Part shown: in pieces, positions 5,900-42,697 of the stretch
How the letters are laid out: each line of letters starts with the position of its first letter
How positions within the stretch are numbered: the stretch's first letter is position 1
Origin: Desulfuromonas acetoxidans DSM 684
Lineage (GTDB): Bacteria; Desulfobacterota; Desulfuromonadia; Desulfuromonadales; Desulfuromonadaceae
Length of the DNA stretch: 64,000 bases
NCBI RefSeq assembly: GCF_000167355.1
Contig: NZ_AAEW02000015.1
Coordinates: 1 to 64,000 of the forward strand
Direction: 5' to 3'
Made by a program: the position numbers and the translations under genes
The notes under the pieces: generated by a model
Databases searched by the model: none
What the model saw: only the letters and a program-made list of their open reading frames with translations
Told to the model about the DNA's origin: nothing

Positions 5900-6090
5900 G
5901 ATGGTCTCGTGGTTGAGAGTGTGTCTATTAAATGACGGAACTCTCTGTCGTTTGTCAAGAAAGCCTTTGCGATAGGGGGGGCGCCCGTTTGCTCCATTCG
6001 TAACATCTTGTATCTAATGACAGTTTTACCTGTTTATCACTGTTTGGCAAAGACTCCTGTGCTAAACTTGTGGTTCAGGGAGGAACGCTT

Positions 6091-9000
6091 ATGTCACGCT
6101 GGATGAAAAGATCACTGATCACCGTTGCTGTTATCGTCGGGTTGTTGCTGTTATCGATGTTGGTCGTACCCTGGCAAGTTAAAAAACAGGGAACCGCCTG
6201 GATTGCCGAAAATACCGAGCGGACTCTTACCATTGAAAAGGCTTATTTCAATCCTTTTACCTTAAAGCTCGAACTTTCCGGTGTCACCCTGACCGAACCG
6301 GCCAGTGATCAGCCGTTTGTTTCTTGGGATCGCCTGATGGTGGCCGTCAGTCTGCGCTCGATCATTGATCAGGCGTTGATTTTGCGCCGCATTGAGATTG
6401 ATCACCCCTATGTCAAGATCGACCTGCTCGGGGAGCAGCAGTTCAACTTCTCCGATTTTATGCACCTGGGCGACGATGCGCCTCCTCCGGTTGAACCTGT
6501 GCCAGAAGAAGAGTCCGGCCCGTTCCTGTTTTCGTTTAATAACATCGTCATCAGCGATGGCGAGATCGACTTCAATGATCAGGCATCGCCGCAAAGCTCT
6601 CACCATGAGATCCGTCAACTGGCCCTGAGCGTGCCGGTGATCGGCAATGTGGAATATCTGGCCGATGAATATGTCACGCCGGAGCTGGCCATGCTGCTCA
6701 ATGGCGCTGATATTCATGCCGAGGGCCAATCCAAGCCGTTTGATAACTCTCTCGAAACTAACCTGTCGCTGGCGTTTTTTAATACCGATCTGGCGTTTTA
6801 TGCGCAGAATGCACCGGTGGCGCTGCCTGTCGATGTGCAGAGTGGCATCCTTGATTGCGAGATCAATCTCACCTATCTGGTCACCAAGGATGAATTGCCT
6901 AAGCTGCTGGTTAACGGTGATTTTGCCCTCAGTGAGCTGGTGGTCAATGAGCCGGATGGCAAGCCGCTGTTTGCCATGCCGACCCTGCTGCTCGACGTTG
7001 AACAGGCCGATGTGTTCAAGCAGGATTTTACCTTATCCCTGATTGCCCTATTTGAACCCCATCTGTGGCTCAGCCGCGATGAACAGGCGCAATTGAACCT
7101 GACGCGGTTGTTCGCTTCCTCCGAGCCACAAAGTGAAGAGCCTCCGGCGGTGGAGGGTGAGGGTGAAGGGAGCATGCCCCTGTTGCTGATCCGTTCACTG
7201 GCACTGCATAACGGGCAACTGTCGTTTGATGATCAGTCACTCAAAACACCGATTGCCGAACGGATTCATGGTATCACTCTGACGGTGGACAATTTTTCCA
7301 CCCATCCCGACCAACAAGCCACGCTTGATCTGCGCCTGCAGACGGATCATCAGCTGGATGTTGCCATCAATGGTCAACTCGGTGCCGTGCCCGCTCAGGC
7401 CGATCTGGCCTTCAGCGCCAACGGCTTACAGCTTGAACCTTATTATCCCTATCTTGAACAAGTGCTCACCGCACCGCTTTCCGGTCAGGTCGATGCCGCA
7501 GCTCAGCTTGTTTATGCCGATGGCAACACCCTGGTGCACGATGGCGCGGTGACGCTCCGTGATCTGGTGGTGCCGTTTTCCGGTGAGGATCGTTTTACCC
7601 TCAAACAATTGCAGGTGAACGGCACCACGGTGGATGTCAACGCGCAGCAGGTCAATCTGGGGCAGCTCAGTCTGACTCAGGGTGATATCAAAGCGACTCG
7701 AATGGCCGATGGATCGTTGTCACCGGAAAAACTGCTGCGCCCGGCACAACAGCAACCCCCGCAAACGACTGCAACACAACAAGATTCAAAGCCGTGGAAT
7801 ATCAACCTGGCCAGCTTCGACCTCGGCCCGTTTAAGCTGCAATTTCGTGATGACACCAGCGAGAAAAAACCGCTGCTTGTGGTCAACCAGATTGGTGTGC
7901 ATGCCGAGAATCTCAGCTTTCCCAAGGCGACAAAGAGTCCGTTCAAGTTGACGGCTAAAGTGGGCAAAACAGGAGATGTGCGGGTTGATGGCTCCGTGGT
8001 GCACACGCCGCTGAATCTGGTGGCAACATCGCGCATCAAGGCGTTTCCGTTGGATGACTTCAACGACTTTATCCCTGCCGATCTGAAACTCAAGGTCAAA
8101 GACGGGCAACTGTTCTCCACGATCACCACTCGCCTCAATCAGCAGGGCTCTGACCTGAAAGGGACATTCTCCGGTGATGTCGCTGTCCACCGCTTTAATC
8201 TTCTCGATGGTTTCGGCGGTGAAATGGTGCGTTGGGACGGCCTCAACCTGTCCGGCATTCAGGGCGATGTCGCGCCGTTTGCCCTGCATATCAAAGAAGT
8301 CGCTCTCAACGACTATCAGGCCAATATCGAAGTGGCTGCCGATGGCCAGGTTAACCTGACCAGTGTTCAGGCTTCTGAGGCGGCTGAGACCGAAGGGGAG
8401 GCGGCTGTTGAGCCTAAGCCGGAACCGGCGGCTGTGGCCGAGGCGATGAAACCGGAATCCAGCGAGCCGCCAGCGGATATCCGCATTGATGCCGTCACCT
8501 TGCAAGGGGGCACGGTTTCCTTCACCGACCGCCATCTGCCCAGCACCTTTGCTACCACCATGTACGATCTGGGCGGGCGCATCTCCGGTCTGGCCTCCGA
8601 TGAAGAGATGCAGGCCGATGTTGACCTGCGCGGTCAATTGGAAAACAACTCGCCACTGACCATCACCGGTAAACTCAATCCGCTCAGCCAAGATCTGTTT
8701 GCTGATCTGACCATCAGCTTCAAAGATATCGACCTATCGCCGATGACGCCGTATTCCGGCACCTATCTCGGCTATGCCATCGACAAGGGCAAGCTGTATC
8801 TTGACCTCAACTACACCATCGAACATCAGCAGATTGAAGCTGACAACAAGGTGATGATCGACCAGTTCACCTTTGGCGACTCCATCGACAGCGAACAAGC
8901 GACCTCGCTGCCGGTCGCCTTTGCCATCTCACTGCTCAAAGATCGCAACGACGAGATTCATCTCGATATTCCCATTTCCGGCAACCTCAACGATCCCGAC

Positions 9001-9666
9001 TTCAGCCTCGCCAGCACGATATTTACCGTTTTGCGTAATCTGCTGGTGAAAGCGGCCACATCACCGTTTGCCTTGCTGTCGTCACTGATTCCCGAAGGCG
9101 AAGATGTCAGTAGTATCAGCTTCACTCTGGGGCGCTCCAATATCAGTGCAGATCAGACACATGTTCTCGACAGTCTGGCCGAAGTCCTCACTAAACGGCC
9201 ATCGCTGATTCTAGAAATCAGCCCCTATGCCGATCAAAATAACGATCCTGAAGCGTATCGGCGCCAACAACTCACGGAAATGCTCCAGGCAGTTAAGTGG
9301 GAAGATATGGATGATGATGAACGTAAAAATATGACGGTTGGCGATGTGCAAATCACCGACGAGGAATATCCGGATGTACTCAAACAGGTCTACAAAAATG
9401 CTGAATTTCCCCGACCGCGTAACGTGCTCGGTTTCCTCAAATCCTTGCCACCGGAAGAGATGGAAAAACTGTTGCTGGCCAATATCCGCGCTGGCGATGA
9501 GGAGATGGCCGCTCTGGCCAAGGCGCGCGCCATGGCTGTGCGTGATGGCATCTTGGCTATCAATCCCGAATTAAAACCTCGACTGTTTTTGATGACCACG
9601 GAGATTTATGCTGAGCCTGAATCTGGCCCAGCCAGTCGGGTGGAATTTGGGATTAATGCGAAGTAG
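6091..9666 (+). CDS. DUF748 / AsmA-like giant envelope protein
   Basis: 1191 aa, starting at the ATG behind CAGGGAGG. A single N-terminal membrane anchor (about residues 7-30) is followed by a very long extracytoplasmic region of repeating beta-strand units typical of DUF748 and related AsmA/TamB-like proteins, thought to form lipid-conducting grooves across the periplasm. Acidic/Pro/Ala-rich linkers occur near 140 and 770-800. The C-terminus (ISADQTHVLDSLAEVLTKRP...) is the conserved DUF748 ending, resembling an OmpA-like peptidoglycan-binding fold. It stands alone, followed by its own terminator. A role in outer-membrane lipid transport is inferred from the family only. Confidence 0.85.
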   Translation: MSRWMKRSLITVAVIVGLLLLSMLVVPWQVKKQGTAWIAENTERTLTIEKAYFNPFTLKLELSGVTLTEPASDQPFVSWDRLMVAVSLRSIIDQALILRRIEIDHPYVKIDLLGEQQFNFSDFMHLGDDAPPPVEPVPEEESGPFLFSFNNIVISDGEIDFNDQASPQSSHHEIRQLALSVPVIGNVEYLADEYVTPELAMLLNGADIHAEGQSKPFDNSLETNLSLAFFNTDLAFYAQNAPVALPVDVQSGILDCEINLTYLVTKDELPKLLVNGDFALSELVVNEPDGKPLFAMPTLLLDVEQADVFKQDFTLSLIALFEPHLWLSRDEQAQLNLTRLFASSEPQSEEPPAVEGEGEGSMPLLLIRSLALHNGQLSFDDQSLKTPIAERIHGITLTVDNFSTHPDQQATLDLRLQTDHQLDVAINGQLGAVPAQADLAFSANGLQLEPYYPYLEQVLTAPLSGQVDAAAQLVYADGNTLVHDGAVTLRDLVVPFSGEDRFTLKQLQVNGTTVDVNAQQVNLGQLSLTQGDIKATRMADGSLSPEKLLRPAQQQPPQTTATQQDSKPWNINLASFDLGPFKLQFRDDTSEKKPLLVVNQIGVHAENLSFPKATKSPFKLTAKVGKTGDVRVDGSVVHTPLNLVATSRIKAFPLDDFNDFIPADLKLKVKDGQLFSTITTRLNQQGSDLKGTFSGDVAVHRFNLLDGFGGEMVRWDGLNLSGIQGDVAPFALHIKEVALNDYQANIEVAADGQVNLTSVQASEAAETEGEAAVEPKPEPAAVAEAMKPESSEPPADIRIDAVTLQGGTVSFTDRHLPSTFATTMYDLGGRISGLASDEEMQADVDLRGQLENNSPLTITGKLNPLSQDLFADLTISFKDIDLSPMTPYSGTYLGYAIDKGKLYLDLNYTIEHQQIEADNKVMIDQFTFGDSIDSEQATSLPVAFAISLLKDRNDEIHLDIPISGNLNDPDFSLASTIFTVLRNLLVKAATSPFALLSSLIPEGEDVSSISFTLGRSNISADQTHVLDSLAEVLTKRPSLILEISPYADQNNDPEAYRRQQLTEMLQAVKWEDMDDDERKNMTVGDVQITDEEYPDVLKQVYKNAEFPRPRNVLGFLKSLPPEEMEKLLLANIRAGDEEMAALAKARAMAVRDGILAINPELKPRLFLMTTEIYAEPESGPASRVEFGINAK

Positions 9667-9730
9667 GGGAGCAGCGATTCTGGTTTAGGCGGTTAGATCT
9701 AAGCAGAATGTAAGCGCGCAAAATAGGACA

Positions 9731-9776
9731 AAAGAAAGCGGGGTCATCCAACAATGACCCTGCTTTCTTTGTTTTT
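9731..9776 (+). terminator. Rho-independent terminator after the DUF748 gene
   Basis: AAAGAAAGC plus GGGTCAT pair with ATGACCC plus GCTTTCTTT around a short loop, followed by GTTTTT. Confidence 0.85.
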
Positions 9777-10120
9777 ATTATAGCCATCGAATAGACAATT
9801 AGAATTGTAGATTGTTTCATGTGAATTCGTTATTTTATGGGTCGTGTAAATCACGGACTGTGAGAGGCTTTTATCTACTTTTCACGACAATAGATGTGAT
9901 TTTGGGTGAATTAATCAATTCTGCCTAGCACGGCGGTTTTTTCTAAAATGTGCAGATATTTTCTGTCTATCACGTTTTCTTCGAAGATGGGGAGTCGAGG
10001 TAGTGGATTGTAATTACAGCGGATATGCGTATCTAGCACGCTTAGATTCGAAGATTTAAACTTGCTAGGCAGAATCCGTCAATATGGTGATAGGCGGAAA
10101 CGTTTCTGCCTAATACACTG
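9777..10120. other. AT-rich gap preceding the cassette, with 13-bp inverted repeats
   Basis: No supported gene. ATTCTGCCTAGCA at 9918-9930 recurs as its exact reverse complement at 10063-10075, and a third partial copy (TTCTGCCTA) lies at 10104-10112, just before the cassette boundary. Base composition is unlike the upstream gene. It could be a regulatory or recombination region; no complete attC or integrase gene is visible here. Confidence 0.5.
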
Positions 10121-11506
10121 TTAGCGAGATAAAATATGATATTTTCACGACCCAAAATAACTGAAGTGTTCACGCCAAGACGTGCTGAAGTGAACCCTAA
10201 AATGTATGTCAATCGTCCTTTTCACGAAAAGACGTTAAAGCGATCTGTCGATGGTTCACTTCATACGATCATTTCAGGCGAAAGTGGCAATGGGAAAAGT
10301 TGGTTATACAAGAAAGTCGCCTTAGACCAAAACTGGAAAGTATTTCCTGGCAATTTTAGTAATGCAGCAAGGTTAGGTTCACTAACAGCTGAAATATTTA
10401 ATGCTATTGTCCCTAAAGGTTCCAAAGAATGGATTGCACATGAAGAAACAATTAATGCTGAGTTATCGGCGTTAGTAGCTAAGGGGGGAGCAAATGCAAA
10501 ACGCTCCTACTCAATTAAGACAGCTGAGTTGCTTGAAAAATCTTTTGAAGTAGGAAGAAGAGAAGCTGGGAATCGAACTGCAGTACTTGTTTTAGATAAT
10601 TTGGAGGCAATTTTTACCAAAAAAGAACTTATGACAGAGCTCGGCAATATACTGTTGCTACTTGATGATGAAAGATACGCTCAACACAAAATAAAAATAT
10701 TAATAGTCGGAGTCCCTGCTAACATTGTTGAATACTACCAAAGTATCGAAAATTTAGAGCCTATTGGAAATCGAGTTGAAGAACTATTTCATGTCCAAAG
10801 CCTGAAAGAGGAGCAGGTAAAAATATTCTTGATTAAAGGTTTTCAGGAGCAACTCAAGGTAAAATTAAGCGACACTGCACTCGATGAATGGTCAAAGCAC
10901 ATATATAAATCAACTCTCGGCATAGCACAAAGGCTCCATGAATATTGTGAGCGCCTCTCATACATAATTGAAGATAATGGGTGGGAAATCCCATCTCATA
11001 TTTTGGATGACGCAGACTGGGAGTTTTCTGCAAGTTCACTATACAAGGCATACTCAGTAGTTGATAAATGTATGAATGAACGTGAAACTCGCACTGCGAG
11101 AAGGAATCAAGTTTTATATGCCTTAGGCTGTATTGACCAAACGTCGTTCGACTATTCACTTGTTGAAAAAATTGTCAGGCAAGAATTTCCAAAGACAACT
11201 AAAGGAGTATCCCTAGGGATAAGCCAGATACTTTCTGATTTATCAAAAAGCGAAATGCACCTTCTCCGAAAAACTGCCAAAGGAAATGCTTATAGGTTTA
11301 CTGATCCTAAGTATTTGATGTGCATTAGATTAATGCTCGTAATTGATAAAGAAAAAGAAACTATATCAAAGAAACATCTTAAAAGATAAATGGCTGAACT
11401 TCAGTGGAATAAAGAACGAACCGCTAACAAAAGCATTCACCAGACGGCAAGAAGCGCGGCGGCACTGACGCGGAAAGTTTGGGTGGGCCGCTGGTGATGC
11501 AGGTCG
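10121..11506 (+). mobile_element. integron-type gene cassette
   Basis: The unit starts right after G10120 with TTAGCG and ends at G11506 before the next TTATGC. Its attC-like R'' box (CGCTAAC, 11422-11428) is exactly complementary to its own start G/TTAGCG, as expected for a cassette that circularises through its attC. It holds one ORF in the usual orientation. Composition is much more AT-rich than the flanks. No integrase gene is in the window, so this would be a lone attC without an integrase nearby. Confidence 0.7.
10136..11389 (+). CDS. AAA+ ATPase with winged-helix-like C-terminus (ORC/Cdc6-like), cassette-borne
   Basis: 417 aa. Visible elements: Walker A GESGNGKSW at about residues 48-56, Walker B TAVLVLDNLEAI near 147-158, and a sensor-1-like strand KILIVGVP near 193-200. 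After a helical lid, the C-terminal 100 residues (from RRNQVLYALGC through YRFTDPKYL) look like a winged-helix domain, giving an ORC/Cdc6-like layout. It sits 15 bases after the cassette boundary with no evident Shine-Dalgarno, which is common for cassette genes. Codon use is AT-rich compared with its neighbours. Specific function is unknown; a phage-defence or regulatory role is only a hypothesis from the cassette context. Confidence 0.75.
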   Translation: MIFSRPKITEVFTPRRAEVNPKMYVNRPFHEKTLKRSVDGSLHTIISGESGNGKSWLYKKVALDQNWKVFPGNFSNAARLGSLTAEIFNAIVPKGSKEWIAHEETINAELSALVAKGGANAKRSYSIKTAELLEKSFEVGRREAGNRTAVLVLDNLEAIFTKKELMTELGNILLLLDDERYAQHKIKILIVGVPANIVEYYQSIENLEPIGNRVEELFHVQSLKEEQVKIFLIKGFQEQLKVKLSDTALDEWSKHIYKSTLGIAQRLHEYCERLSYIIEDNGWEIPSHILDDADWEFSASSLYKAYSVVDKCMNERETRTARRNQVLYALGCIDQTSFDYSLVEKIVRQEFPKTTKGVSLGISQILSDLSKSEMHLLRKTAKGNAYRFTDPKYLMCIRLMLVIDKEKETISKKHLKR

Positions 11507-11512
11507 TTATGC
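11422..11512 (+). other. attC-like recombination site
   Basis: R'' CGCTAAC at 11422-11428 and R' GTTATGC at 11506-11512 flank an imperfect stem: 11433-11448 pairs with 11487-11500, leaving two unpaired bases on the left arm only (one T, one A). Asymmetric extrahelical bases are the known strand-selection signal of folded attC sites. A loop of about 38 bases separates the arms. Total length of about 91 bp is within the attC range. Confidence 0.75.
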
Positions 11513-11830
11513 GTAAAGGTGATGCGCGAGTCTTTTCCTCGGCAGCGTAGATTTGGGTAAAAATATGGCAAGTGATCTTTGGCAATGGAATTTCGTGGTT
11601 AACGACCTTCTTCATGAACAGATAAAGCTAAAACGTAAGATATGGCTGAAGAAGGGGGAGCTATTTCTAGAGAAGAAAGAAGATAAGCTTCAAGCTTTTT
11701 TGCTTGGTAATGATGAGGATAGATTCTCTCTAGATGAAACACTTACTTCCTACTTCAAGGAACCAAAGGGGTCAAGACCAAAGGGGTCAGATCTACGGTT
11801 GACTGATGCTGACAGGATTTGCTTAGATTT
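11507..11830 (+). other. 3'-truncated second cassette with short unknown ORF
   Basis: Sequence following the attC junction. An ORF can start at ATG 11565 (MASDLWQWNF...) and is Lys/Glu/Leu-rich through about 11760; no family is recognised. From about 11761 the reading frame runs into repeated AAAGGGGTCA sequence and then antisense into the beta-lactamase gene until 11960, so the natural 3' end has been lost. No R'' box matching the cassette start (GCATAAC) appears before the break, so this cassette appears truncated by recombination at the REP-like sequence. Confidence 0.5.
11779..11804 (+). repeat. short REP-like motif, copy 1
   Basis: AAAGGGGTCAGATCTACGG followed by TTGACT. Related copies lie at 13155-13176, 14902-14929 and 17251-17277. 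The core AAGTCTACGGTGGACTT is partly palindromic. It marks the junction between the truncated cassette and the beta-lactamase gene. Confidence 0.55.
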
Positions 11831-12964
11831 TTACTCGTCAGCGACCATTTTTTTAAATCGCAGCAGAACCTCTTGTGCAATCTCACGTGTTGGATCTCGT
11901 TCGTCGTCGAGAATTGGTGCATTGGTGTTACACAATACGGCCACGGTGGTTTGGGTGTGAGGGTCATGCCAGGCGTCGGCATGAAAGCCGATCACCGTAC
12001 CGTTATGGCCAATGCCGAAGCTGTCATCTACCAGAATCCCTGCGGCATAGGTCACGCCTTGGGCAATTGGATAACCGGGAAAGTTTTGCGGTTGAAATTG
12101 GGATGTTAGCAGATTACCACTGGCCAGAGCCTCCATCCATATCGCAACATCCTCAGCGGTGGCAGCGAGACAGCCCGCCGACCAGACATAGGACATATTC
12201 ATGTTTGTCCAGTCTTCATAGTGTCCGTCTTCATCAAAATCGTAGTAGCCACGTACAAGCTGTTGGGGTTGGTCGTCATCTTCCAGGACGAAGGTGTTTT
12301 GAAGGGCCAGCGGAGTCAGCAGGGCCTGCTGCAGATAGTCGTGATAACTTTGGCCGGAAACGGTTTCAATCAGTTGCCCAAGTAGAATGTAATTGGTGTT
12401 GTTGTAGCTGAACTCGGTTCCGGGCGGGTAGAGCAGTTCCGGTGAATTGAGCAGGGCGTTTTCGACTAGTGTGTGCGGTGGGTAGTCGGTTAAAGGCTGT
12501 GGCAGGACTGAATCGGTCAGAAATTGAGGGCTAAGGTATTCACCCAACCCGCTACTCATGGTTAATAGCTGGTTAACACTGATCTGTGCCAGCACTTCGG
12601 CATCGTACTGTTCGCCCAGGTAGTCGCTGATCGGGGCCTCGAGGTTGATCAGGCCATCTTGGGTCAGTTGGAGGACTCCGGTACCGGTGAAGCTTTTGGA
12701 CAGACTGCCGATGCGAAAGCGGTGAGCGGCCGTTACCAGCGTCTTGGTGCTAAGGTCGGCATATCCCCAGGTTATGGCAAAATTGCCGTAGTCGGGCGAA
12801 ATGATATAGACAGAGGCTCCTGGTACGCCAGTTTCTTGGCACACCGTGGCGACCAGGTCGTTCAACTCGCTGCTGAGTGTCGGCCGGTTGTTGCTGTCTG
12901 AAGAGCAGGCCGCAATTAGCAGCAGGCAGTATGAAATAAACAAAGTCCTGAAAAAAGTTCTCAT
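11831..12964 (-). CDS. serine beta-lactamase-family hydrolase, lipoprotein
   Basis: 377 aa from the ATG preceded by AGAGGAAAAGAGG. An N-terminal lipoprotein signal (LLLIAACSS) predicts membrane anchoring in the periplasm. The class C beta-lactamase / D-Ala-D-Ala carboxypeptidase fold is supported by SLSK (SxxK nucleophile, in FRIGSLSKSF), YNN (YxN, in FSYNNTNY) and HNG in the third motif (GHNGTVIG). Such proteins are usually peptidases or esterases acting on peptidoglycan or small D-peptides rather than antibiotic resistance enzymes. An ORF start at 13120 exists but would bury the signal peptide. The 3' end abuts the broken cassette. Confidence 0.87.
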   Translation of the reverse strand: MRTFFRTLFISYCLLLIAACSSDSNNRPTLSSELNDLVATVCQETGVPGASVYIISPDYGNFAITWGYADLSTKTLVTAAHRFRIGSLSKSFTGTGVLQLTQDGLINLEAPISDYLGEQYDAEVLAQISVNQLLTMSSGLGEYLSPQFLTDSVLPQPLTDYPPHTLVENALLNSPELLYPPGTEFSYNNTNYILLGQLIETVSGQSYHDYLQQALLTPLALQNTFVLEDDDQPQQLVRGYYDFDEDGHYEDWTNMNMSYVWSAGCLAATAEDVAIWMEALASGNLLTSQFQPQNFPGYPIAQGVTYAAGILVDDSFGIGHNGTVIGFHADAWHDPHTQTTVAVLCNTNAPILDDERDPTREIAQEVLLRFKKMVADE

Positions 12965-13610
12965 CCTCTTTTCCTCTGAAAATGGCAATTTGATACCCCC
13001 GTAATTCCCACGTTGAAAGAAGTGCGTAGAAAGGGGAGGTCGATCATTGAGGTGCCCCGAAAAACAGGCAATCGTCAGATTTCTAAACTCCAGAGCGCCA
13101 GGTAAGAGTGATAAATTCACCGCCCACAGTCATATTGAAAAAATAAACCGAATAGGTCAAGTCTACGGTGGACTTATCGTTGTTGACTGAGGGTCACCTG
13201 AAATGGCAAGGCTGCTGATTTTGTGGATGAAAGTTGGTTGCGTGCAAGGTGAAATGAGTTCAGACGCAAGAGATCGCCCTTCTCGTAGGCCGTCCTGTGG
13301 CGGTAGTCAGCAACGCCCTTCGGCTGGATAAGGAAAATTGGTAAAATAGAGGCGAGCTGGTTTAAAATCGGTAGCGGCAAAACGTTCAATGATTTAACCT
13401 GTGGACTGGTGCGTAAGGGATTCGACATCCTTATCGCCAAAGATGTTTTTTTCCTTAAAAAATTCTGGTCAAAGCGAATGTGTTTCGGACTGGGTGGAAC
13501 GTGACTGATGATAGCTATGAAGTTACAGAACGTTTCTGGAGAGTTTCTCAAATGGTCAAGCAGTTACCGTTCGTGAAACTCCAAGTTAAGGCGTTTTGGG
13601 AGATTTTGTG
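12965..13610. other. gene-free region with REP-like remnant
   Basis: No convincing gene in 646 bases. A REP-like GGTCAAGTCTACGGTGGACT copy is at 13155-13176. A minus-strand ORF at 13174-13551 has no recognisable domain, no ribosome-binding site and low-complexity composition; I treat it as chance. The region next to 13600 supplies GGGAG ahead of the nitrilase-like gene. Confidence 0.5.
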
Positions 13611-42521: not shown

Positions 42522-42527
42522 TGAAAC

Positions 42528-42697
42528 CATGCATTAAGAGAGGCGTGGCGGCATGAGCCAAGCGCCCGGCAACCTGACAACCAAGGTGCCAGCATGTTTT
42601 GTGAACACGGTGTTTGCAAAACAGCGATGCGCCCCGTAAGGGGAAAGTTGACCTACCGTACACGTTGTACTTTCGTCATCTCTCGCGTCGCCTCTCT
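42528..42697 (+). ncRNA. SAM-I/SAM-IV-clan riboswitch leader of metY
   Basis: A P1 helix CATGC (42528-42532) / GCATG (42592-42596) closes a core with AGAGAGG, a helix GGCG-GGC/GCC-GCGCC, and the S-box-like CCGGCAACC...GGTGCCA hairpin. Further hairpins follow: TGTTTTG/CAAAACA and CCCC/GGGG. Position before an O-acetylhomoserine sulfhydrylase gene fits methionine control by S-adenosylmethionine. The 5' AGAGAGGCG (42537-42545) is exactly complementary to CGCCTCTCT (42689-42697), a possible alternative pairing for the off/on switch. Assignment to SAM-I versus SAM-IV is not certain. Confidence 0.75.

Follow-up and report, generated by a model that had tools for sequence, protein, structure and literature searches.

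How a lone gene cassette comes to stand beside an ordinary chromosomal gene, with no integron integrase near it, is the question raised by one locus of Desulfuromonas acetoxidans DSM 684. The window analysed here is a stretch of 64,000 nt (contig NZ_AAEW02000015.1, positions 1 to 64,000) from a draft genome of 51 contigs and 3.82 Mb that is 96.5% complete. An initial annotation, made from the letters alone, described one captured cassette in surroundings that are otherwise chromosomal. Our analysis favours a fuller reading, to which we assign a probability of roughly 0.65, in which the locus is an attI platform without an integrase gene of its own and the cassette was recombined into it by an integrase encoded elsewhere.

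The cassette and its attC site

Judged from its sequence features, the stretch 10121–11506 (+ strand) is an integron gene cassette. Its left edge reads G|TTAGCG at 10120–10126, and the start GTTAGCG is complementary in 7 of 7 letters to the R″ box of its own attC, CGCTAAC (11422–11428). The attC (11422–11512, +) is closed by the R′ box GTTATGC (11506–11512), and between the boxes two arms (11433–11448 and 11487–11500) form a stem of 14 pairs, GCA-(T)-TCACCAG-(A)-CGGC against GCCG-CTGGTGA-TGC. Two bases of the stem are unpaired (11436 or 11437, and 11444), both on the 5′ arm only. The cassette spans T10121 to G11506, and 90% of this span is occupied by an open reading frame (10136–11389, +) whose GC content is 37.5%, against 51.2% for the window. 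The initial annotation had recorded the boxes at these positions, the exact complementarity of cassette start and R″, the one-sided unpaired bases and an AT-rich reading frame in cassette orientation, and all of these were found as described.

In the attC scan, this site scored 34, the highest value on either strand of the 64 kb, the runner-up scoring 29.5. Of 100 single strands of 64 kb simulated with a first-order Markov model, none reached 34; together they gave 131 hits scoring at least 24, nine of which reached 30. The rule for R″ (RYYYAAC) had been relaxed after a stricter scan missed the window attC, because CGCTAAC differs from it at the first two letters, and the null was scored under the relaxed rule too. 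An earlier loose scan, with many false sites scoring equal to or above real ones, had been replaced. The positive control was a class 1 integron region. With the threshold set at 18, the scan listed four sites there; the two best (28 and 24) correspond to the attC of the two cassettes present, and the remaining two (19.5 and 18) are false. An exact 7-letter R″ match 0.2–4 kb upstream is frequent by chance (45 of the 131 null hits); the 7/7 complementarity counts here because the attI boundary described below fixes the start position independently. The attC palindromes were misaligned by MAFFT, and no consensus pair was predicted from the alignment.

A chance hairpin adjoining an ordinary chromosomal gene could show such features as the ordinary DNA folding energy of the site (z −1.12, with 31 of 200 shuffles folding equally well or better) and an R″ that departs from RYYYAAC. 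This explanation is opposed by the scan statistics, by the boundary that relatives show at the cassette start and by a recurrent module that ends at the same point, and we consider its probability negligible.

The reading frame encodes a 417-aa ATPase of the AAA_22 family (Pfam, 32.4 bits against a cut-off of 27) with a Walker A motif, GESGNGKS, that was spotted by eye; no convincing promoter was seen in the leader. One weak partial match to the ATPase was present in 394 other genomes of the phylum, and relatives with 30–31% identity occurred in two plasmid records, from Vibrio and Tritonibacter. A protein search of viral contigs gave no relative, and phmmer against solved structures gave nothing credible. 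PADLOC returned a partial match of residues 8–64 to the candidate defence protein PDC-S59 (E 1e-7); a role of the ATPase in defence is a guess.

Between R′ and the conserved right flank lies a further stretch, 11507–11776 (+), which is probably a truncated second cassette. It holds a reading frame from 11565, and its 3′ end appears to have been lost at a repeated ACCAAAGGGGTCA, copies of which stand at 11762 and 11777. Neither an attC nor a family match was found in 11507–11776, and the chain walk, which requires 6 or 7 letters of a cassette start to be complementary to the R″ of the same cassette and then a stem, gave no partner for GTTATGC.

The attI platform and its counterparts in relatives

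The left edge of the cassette coincides with the end of a conserved attI-like site, which recurs in other genomes. The leader, or putative attI region (9917–10123, +), contains five copies of TTCYGYCTA, at 9919, 9961 and 10104 on the + strand and at 10066 and 10091 on the − strand; these five, within 194 bp, are all that occur in the 64 kb. It ends in the attI core TTCTGCCTAATACACT|GTTA (10104–10123, +), with the predicted crossover between G10120 and T10121, and this core is common to contig C4 of the same genome and to the relatives G002, G007, G008, G010 and G084. Upstream lies the conserved left neighbour, a DUF748/AsmA-family gene (6070–9666, +; Pfam DUF748, E 9e-298), with a terminator-like hairpin on its 3′ side (9731–9770, +; a 17-pair stem and a T run, from a consensus scan only). 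Full or near full length orthologues of this gene (69–96%) are present in five of nine other genomes of the genus, in one case split across two contigs. To the right, 11777–12393 is common to G008 at 96%, and the neighbouring gene encodes a beta-lactamase/esterase-like serine hydrolase (11831–13120, −; PF00144, E 8e-56) that has two partial matches at the same place in G008. Elsewhere in the window, a SAM-I/IV riboswitch was detected at 42526–42659, barely above the gathering score.

For the comparison of the flanks, the query was the initial 24 kb of the window, and each species was represented by one genome. G008 aligned to 5934–10123 at 92.7% and G002 to 5987–10124 at 88.6%, and both diverge at the cassette start. 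Beyond this boundary G008 has small genes (two of them with weak sub-threshold HEPN and HSDR_N matches) and several strong attC, and G002 has a cassette of 378 bp whose weak attC was accepted by the looser walk and rejected by the stricter one, so that three species hold unlike content after the same base. The match to G008 resumes at 11777; the variable stretch is therefore 10121–11776, which is longer than the cassette. The flanking gene is also kept in G007, whose attI lies about 14 kb further on. The ATPase gene was found in none of 57 relatives, two of which share the left flank up to the boundary; the same gene between the same flanks with no cassette boundary, the case that would have told against a cassette, was not encountered among them. 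The capture proposed at first is well supported by this divergence from exactly the cassette start, together with an attC unmatched in the simulated strands, whereas the description as a single cassette in an otherwise chromosomal setting is not supported, given the conserved attI-like site at the left edge, a second such site on contig C4, an integron integrase on contig C41 and the probable truncated unit on the right.

The leader as a whole is conserved in G002, and G008 lacks the first motif and the spacer that follows it. Its outer part is partly like the leader of contig C4 (65 bp, 69%, E 6e-6). A partial leader copy in G008 (C1:3357236–3357459; 76% to window 9720–9941) lies about 10 kb further on and has no attI core. 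A leader search through 136 genomes of the order found 13 places in seven genomes, ten of which include the last ~60 bp; the query stopped at 10126, and the fact that matches end there was not used as evidence. The ten places of this ~60-bp module are distributed over six genomes: the window, its own C4, G002, G007, three places in G008, two in G010 (same family) and one in G084 (same order as the window genome). When whole loci served as queries, the match to the window stopped at 10123–10125 in G008, G002, C4 and G007 and extended 8–16 bases more in loci L060, L065 and L066. C4 and position 868 kb of G008 C1 are one place (flank 93%) with unlike content. The C4 platform likewise opens with an ATPase (nSTAND1), although its identity to the window ATPase is only 21%; the R″ letters GGCTAAC stand at the very end of this first reading frame, with no hairpin by either the looser or the stricter walk.

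In G008, G010 and G084, the module stands beside integron integrases with open reading frames. On contig C2 of G008 it is 119 bp from the start of such a gene, in divergent orientation, and the looser walk places five cassettes after it, one of which matches R″ in just 5 letters, whilst the stricter walk places two. These observations bear on a further explanation, insertion at a chance secondary site (attG) in ordinary DNA, which would give what current vocabulary calls a SALIN. A single attC and the lack of a neighbouring integrase would suit it; against it, what would have been the target is a module found again in other genomes, beside and divergent from integrases, and the content after the module differs in each species. 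We therefore hold insertion at an attG to be very improbable.

Integrases and the attI core

The statement of the initial annotation that the window has no integrase gene was borne out: none was found there, beside the attI or elsewhere, by an integrase profile run over the genome or by tblastn. Nor is there an integrase gene in the stretches of this locus that were examined in the three species, and the complete genome of G002 has no integron integrase above the cut-off anywhere. Relatives keep the docking site with other genes and no integrase, and a capture platform can therefore exist apart from the enzyme. That the window genome lacks any integrase was ruled out, since the search of the rest of the genome yielded one intI above the cut-off, on contig C41 (339 aa; L010 3273–4292). 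The C41 integrase has no N-terminal extension (49% identity over the shared part). Its gene has the orientation of the two C41 cassettes, and attI lies 3′ of it, which is an inverted integrase arrangement; the C41 junction GTTATATTC stands after another leader, and its attI differs from that of the window. From this layout, the window locus is best described as a cassette in a putative integrase-free attI platform, one of two such platforms found in the genome, the other being on C4.

The 20-bp core TTYTGYCTAATACACTGTTA occurs in 32 stretches of genome_contigs (84,980 species genomes), where about two would be expected by chance (arithmetic with even base composition), and in 11 stretches of viral_contigs. 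By title, the hosts are Gammaproteobacteria, including Gilvimarinus, Thioalkalivibrio and Colwellia; Desulfobulbaceae; Desulfuromonas; Desulfuromusa; and MAGs named ‘Deltaproteobacteria’ and ‘Proteobacteria’ (one each). The reversed pattern gave no match at up to two mismatches in 23 genomes, which had been chosen for the core. If the core is conserved between phyla in this way, attI would be recognisable without its integrase. The loci were selected by the pattern, so its 100% columns are true by construction and are not evidence.

Excluding the viral ones, 39 genome loci were examined, 31 of which have at least 1.8 kb upstream; these 31 are not independent, as they include orthologues and several loci from one genome. 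An integrase catalytic domain was found at seven of them, an N-terminal stump only at five and neither at 19. The chain walk detects a cassette after the core in 19 of 41 genome rows, among which two loci appear twice, and in 10 of 13 viral rows (several near-identical); for other GTTA sites the figure is 27 of 646. Seven of the 18 genomes reached via the core, including all three of Thioalkalivibrio, have no integron integrase at E 1e-40. In the three Thioalkalivibrio genomes, the left flank is common at 90–95% until 8–19 bases past the crossover and the loci then diverge as in the window. In these Thioalkalivibrio loci (L074, L084 and L098), the orphan attI lies at a common place beside a type I restriction HsdR gene, recognised by eye, and unlike genes stand beyond the crossover, one with DUF4062. 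In the viral_contigs loci L103–L113, the core is followed by cassettes on contigs with phage-like genes, for example Glyco_hydro_108, and L105 and L107 each have two cores 5245 bp apart.

Where the core has an integrase beside it, the enzyme is mostly of one type. Among 22 integrase loci with at least 600 bp upstream, it was present at eight of the nine with an N-terminal extension and at one of the 13 without (Fisher p 2.4e-4, a value that is too good because many integrase loci were found through the core). Locus L035, with a weak extended-integrase match and 594 bp upstream, just under the cut, has no core, and none lies beside the extended integrase of the gammaproteobacterial genome G141 in the 746 bp up to the contig end. 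Judged from the core loci beside integrases, the cognate enzyme would mostly be of the type with about 140 extra N-terminal residues.

Mobile elements were also seen near the arrays. At all six of its sites (two in L059 and one each in L060, L061 and L171, in G008, and one in L066, in G010), an element that opens with GAATAAGGATAGATAGCG immediately follows xxxTAAC, and at four of them (one in L059; L060, L066 and L171) the TAAC belongs to the R″ of a cassette with a complementary start. In L060, an IS91-type transposase (Y2_Tnp, Zn_Tnp_IS91) lies within about 1.2 kb of the GAATAAGGATAGATAGCG end. The element resembles a transposon whose target is the attC R″ box. In G008 it was initially read as a group II intron end, given the introns that Rfam detects nearby in L059, but the transposase in L060 fits better and the intron assignment was rejected. 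According to Rfam, fragments of group II introns lie close to the cassette arrays at 2196–2634 and 5514–5993 of L059 (G008 C2), one of them with an intron-type reverse transcriptase.

Origin of the locus and its relation to known systems

On the preferred reading, the bottom strand of the attC of a circular cassette would fold and recombine with the window attI at G10120|T10121. The integron integrase acting on it would be encoded elsewhere, in trans, or would be one lost long ago. Such an insertion would leave the ATPase gene in array orientation, and the outcome would be the present arrangement of one complete cassette and a probable remnant of a second in an attI platform without its own integrase gene.

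The best sign of trans action comes from sequence comparison within G141. This genome has three core-headed arrays on three contigs (L163, L164 and L165), each with 5–9 attC-like sites and no integrase nearby, and its one integrase at E 1e-40, of the extended type, is on a fourth contig. Contigs C10 and C24 share cassette sequence (337 bp, 91%) starting within a few bases of the crossover at GTTATAC; C1 has a 245-bp leader in common with C24 and no more than short pieces in common with C10. Between the arrays of the window genome, or between those of G008, no shared cassettes were recognised, and the stretches in common are attI, intron or IS pieces and others of no assigned kind; for the genus Desulfuromonas, the argument for trans action is therefore one of position only.

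The main competing account is that a complete integron was filled in cis and lost its integrase before the three species parted, each species then losing different cassettes of a longer array. An integrase or a stump occurs at 12 of the 31 core loci, which makes a former integrase in cis a live alternative, and the five that keep only an N-terminal stump, in the expected place and direction, indicate that integrase loss in cis happens. The lack of an integrase above the cut-off in G002 would agree with such a loss, and unequal loss from a longer ancestral array could be the source of the species differences. Against this account, the leaders of the window, G002, G008, C4 and G007 yielded no integrase remnant to a profile of extended integrases; the two orphan leaders of the window genome are alike upstream of the module, in the stretch that the integrase gene already occupies at the linked locus L059; and the arrays of G141 have cassettes in common. 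On balance, loss of an integrase once present in cis seems unlikely to us, though far from negligible, and we continue to favour recombination by an integrase in trans.

A more general proposal is that of split integrons, in which one N-extended integrase would serve several scattered integrase-free attI platforms, each with its own array at a fixed chromosomal place, the window being one of them. We put it forward tentatively, at a little short of even odds. As to the present state of the window platform, no extended integrase was found in the draft genome, and the platform is therefore probably idle now unless the C41 integrase can use the window attI; no enzyme in this draft (96.5% complete) demonstrably works on that site.

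Clusters of attC lacking an integron-integrase are known as CALIN (PMC9024848; PMC12444791). In the parts of the literature cited here, CALIN are stated to be mobilisable in trans and to keep conserved positions in Xanthomonas, and integrase-free cassette clusters at conserved places are already published (PMC12444791). The window resembles them in having an attC-bounded cassette, no neighbouring integrase and a place kept between species. It differs in having one attC, whereas IntegronFinder 2 by default reports CALIN from two attC up (PMC9024848), and in that its array is headed by a conserved attI of its own, a feature outside the CALIN descriptions in the cited parts of PMC9024848 and PMC12444791. 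With a complete sedentary integron, it shares the usual order and orientation of attI followed by a cassette with attC, and the same core stands beside intI on contig C2 of G008; unlike such an integron, the window locus is without an integrase gene. In the open-access literature, most subscription papers being outside its scope, our search found no family of orphan attI with a common core. The attI sites outside class 1 are described as poorly known in the cited part of PMC9024848, and integrase-free arrays are therefore easily read as debris.

Two further systems invite comparison. In the delta-attI-type cassettes of class 1 and 2 integrons, attI pieces likewise occur away from the integrase, but there, as far as the cited account goes, the attI piece replaces the attC at the 3′ end of a cassette (PMC12901181), whereas the window attI heads its array and is inherited with the neighbouring gene. 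As in attG insertions (named in PMC12901181 and PMC12444791), the window cassette lies outside a complete integron, but its target is a recurrent attI module, whereas an attG lacks attI identity. A sequence signature of attI that holds in both Gammaproteobacteria and Desulfobacterota, such as this core, would make orphan platforms countable, would make the question of whether one integrase serves several sites in trans directly testable, and would tell attI-headed arrays from attG insertions.
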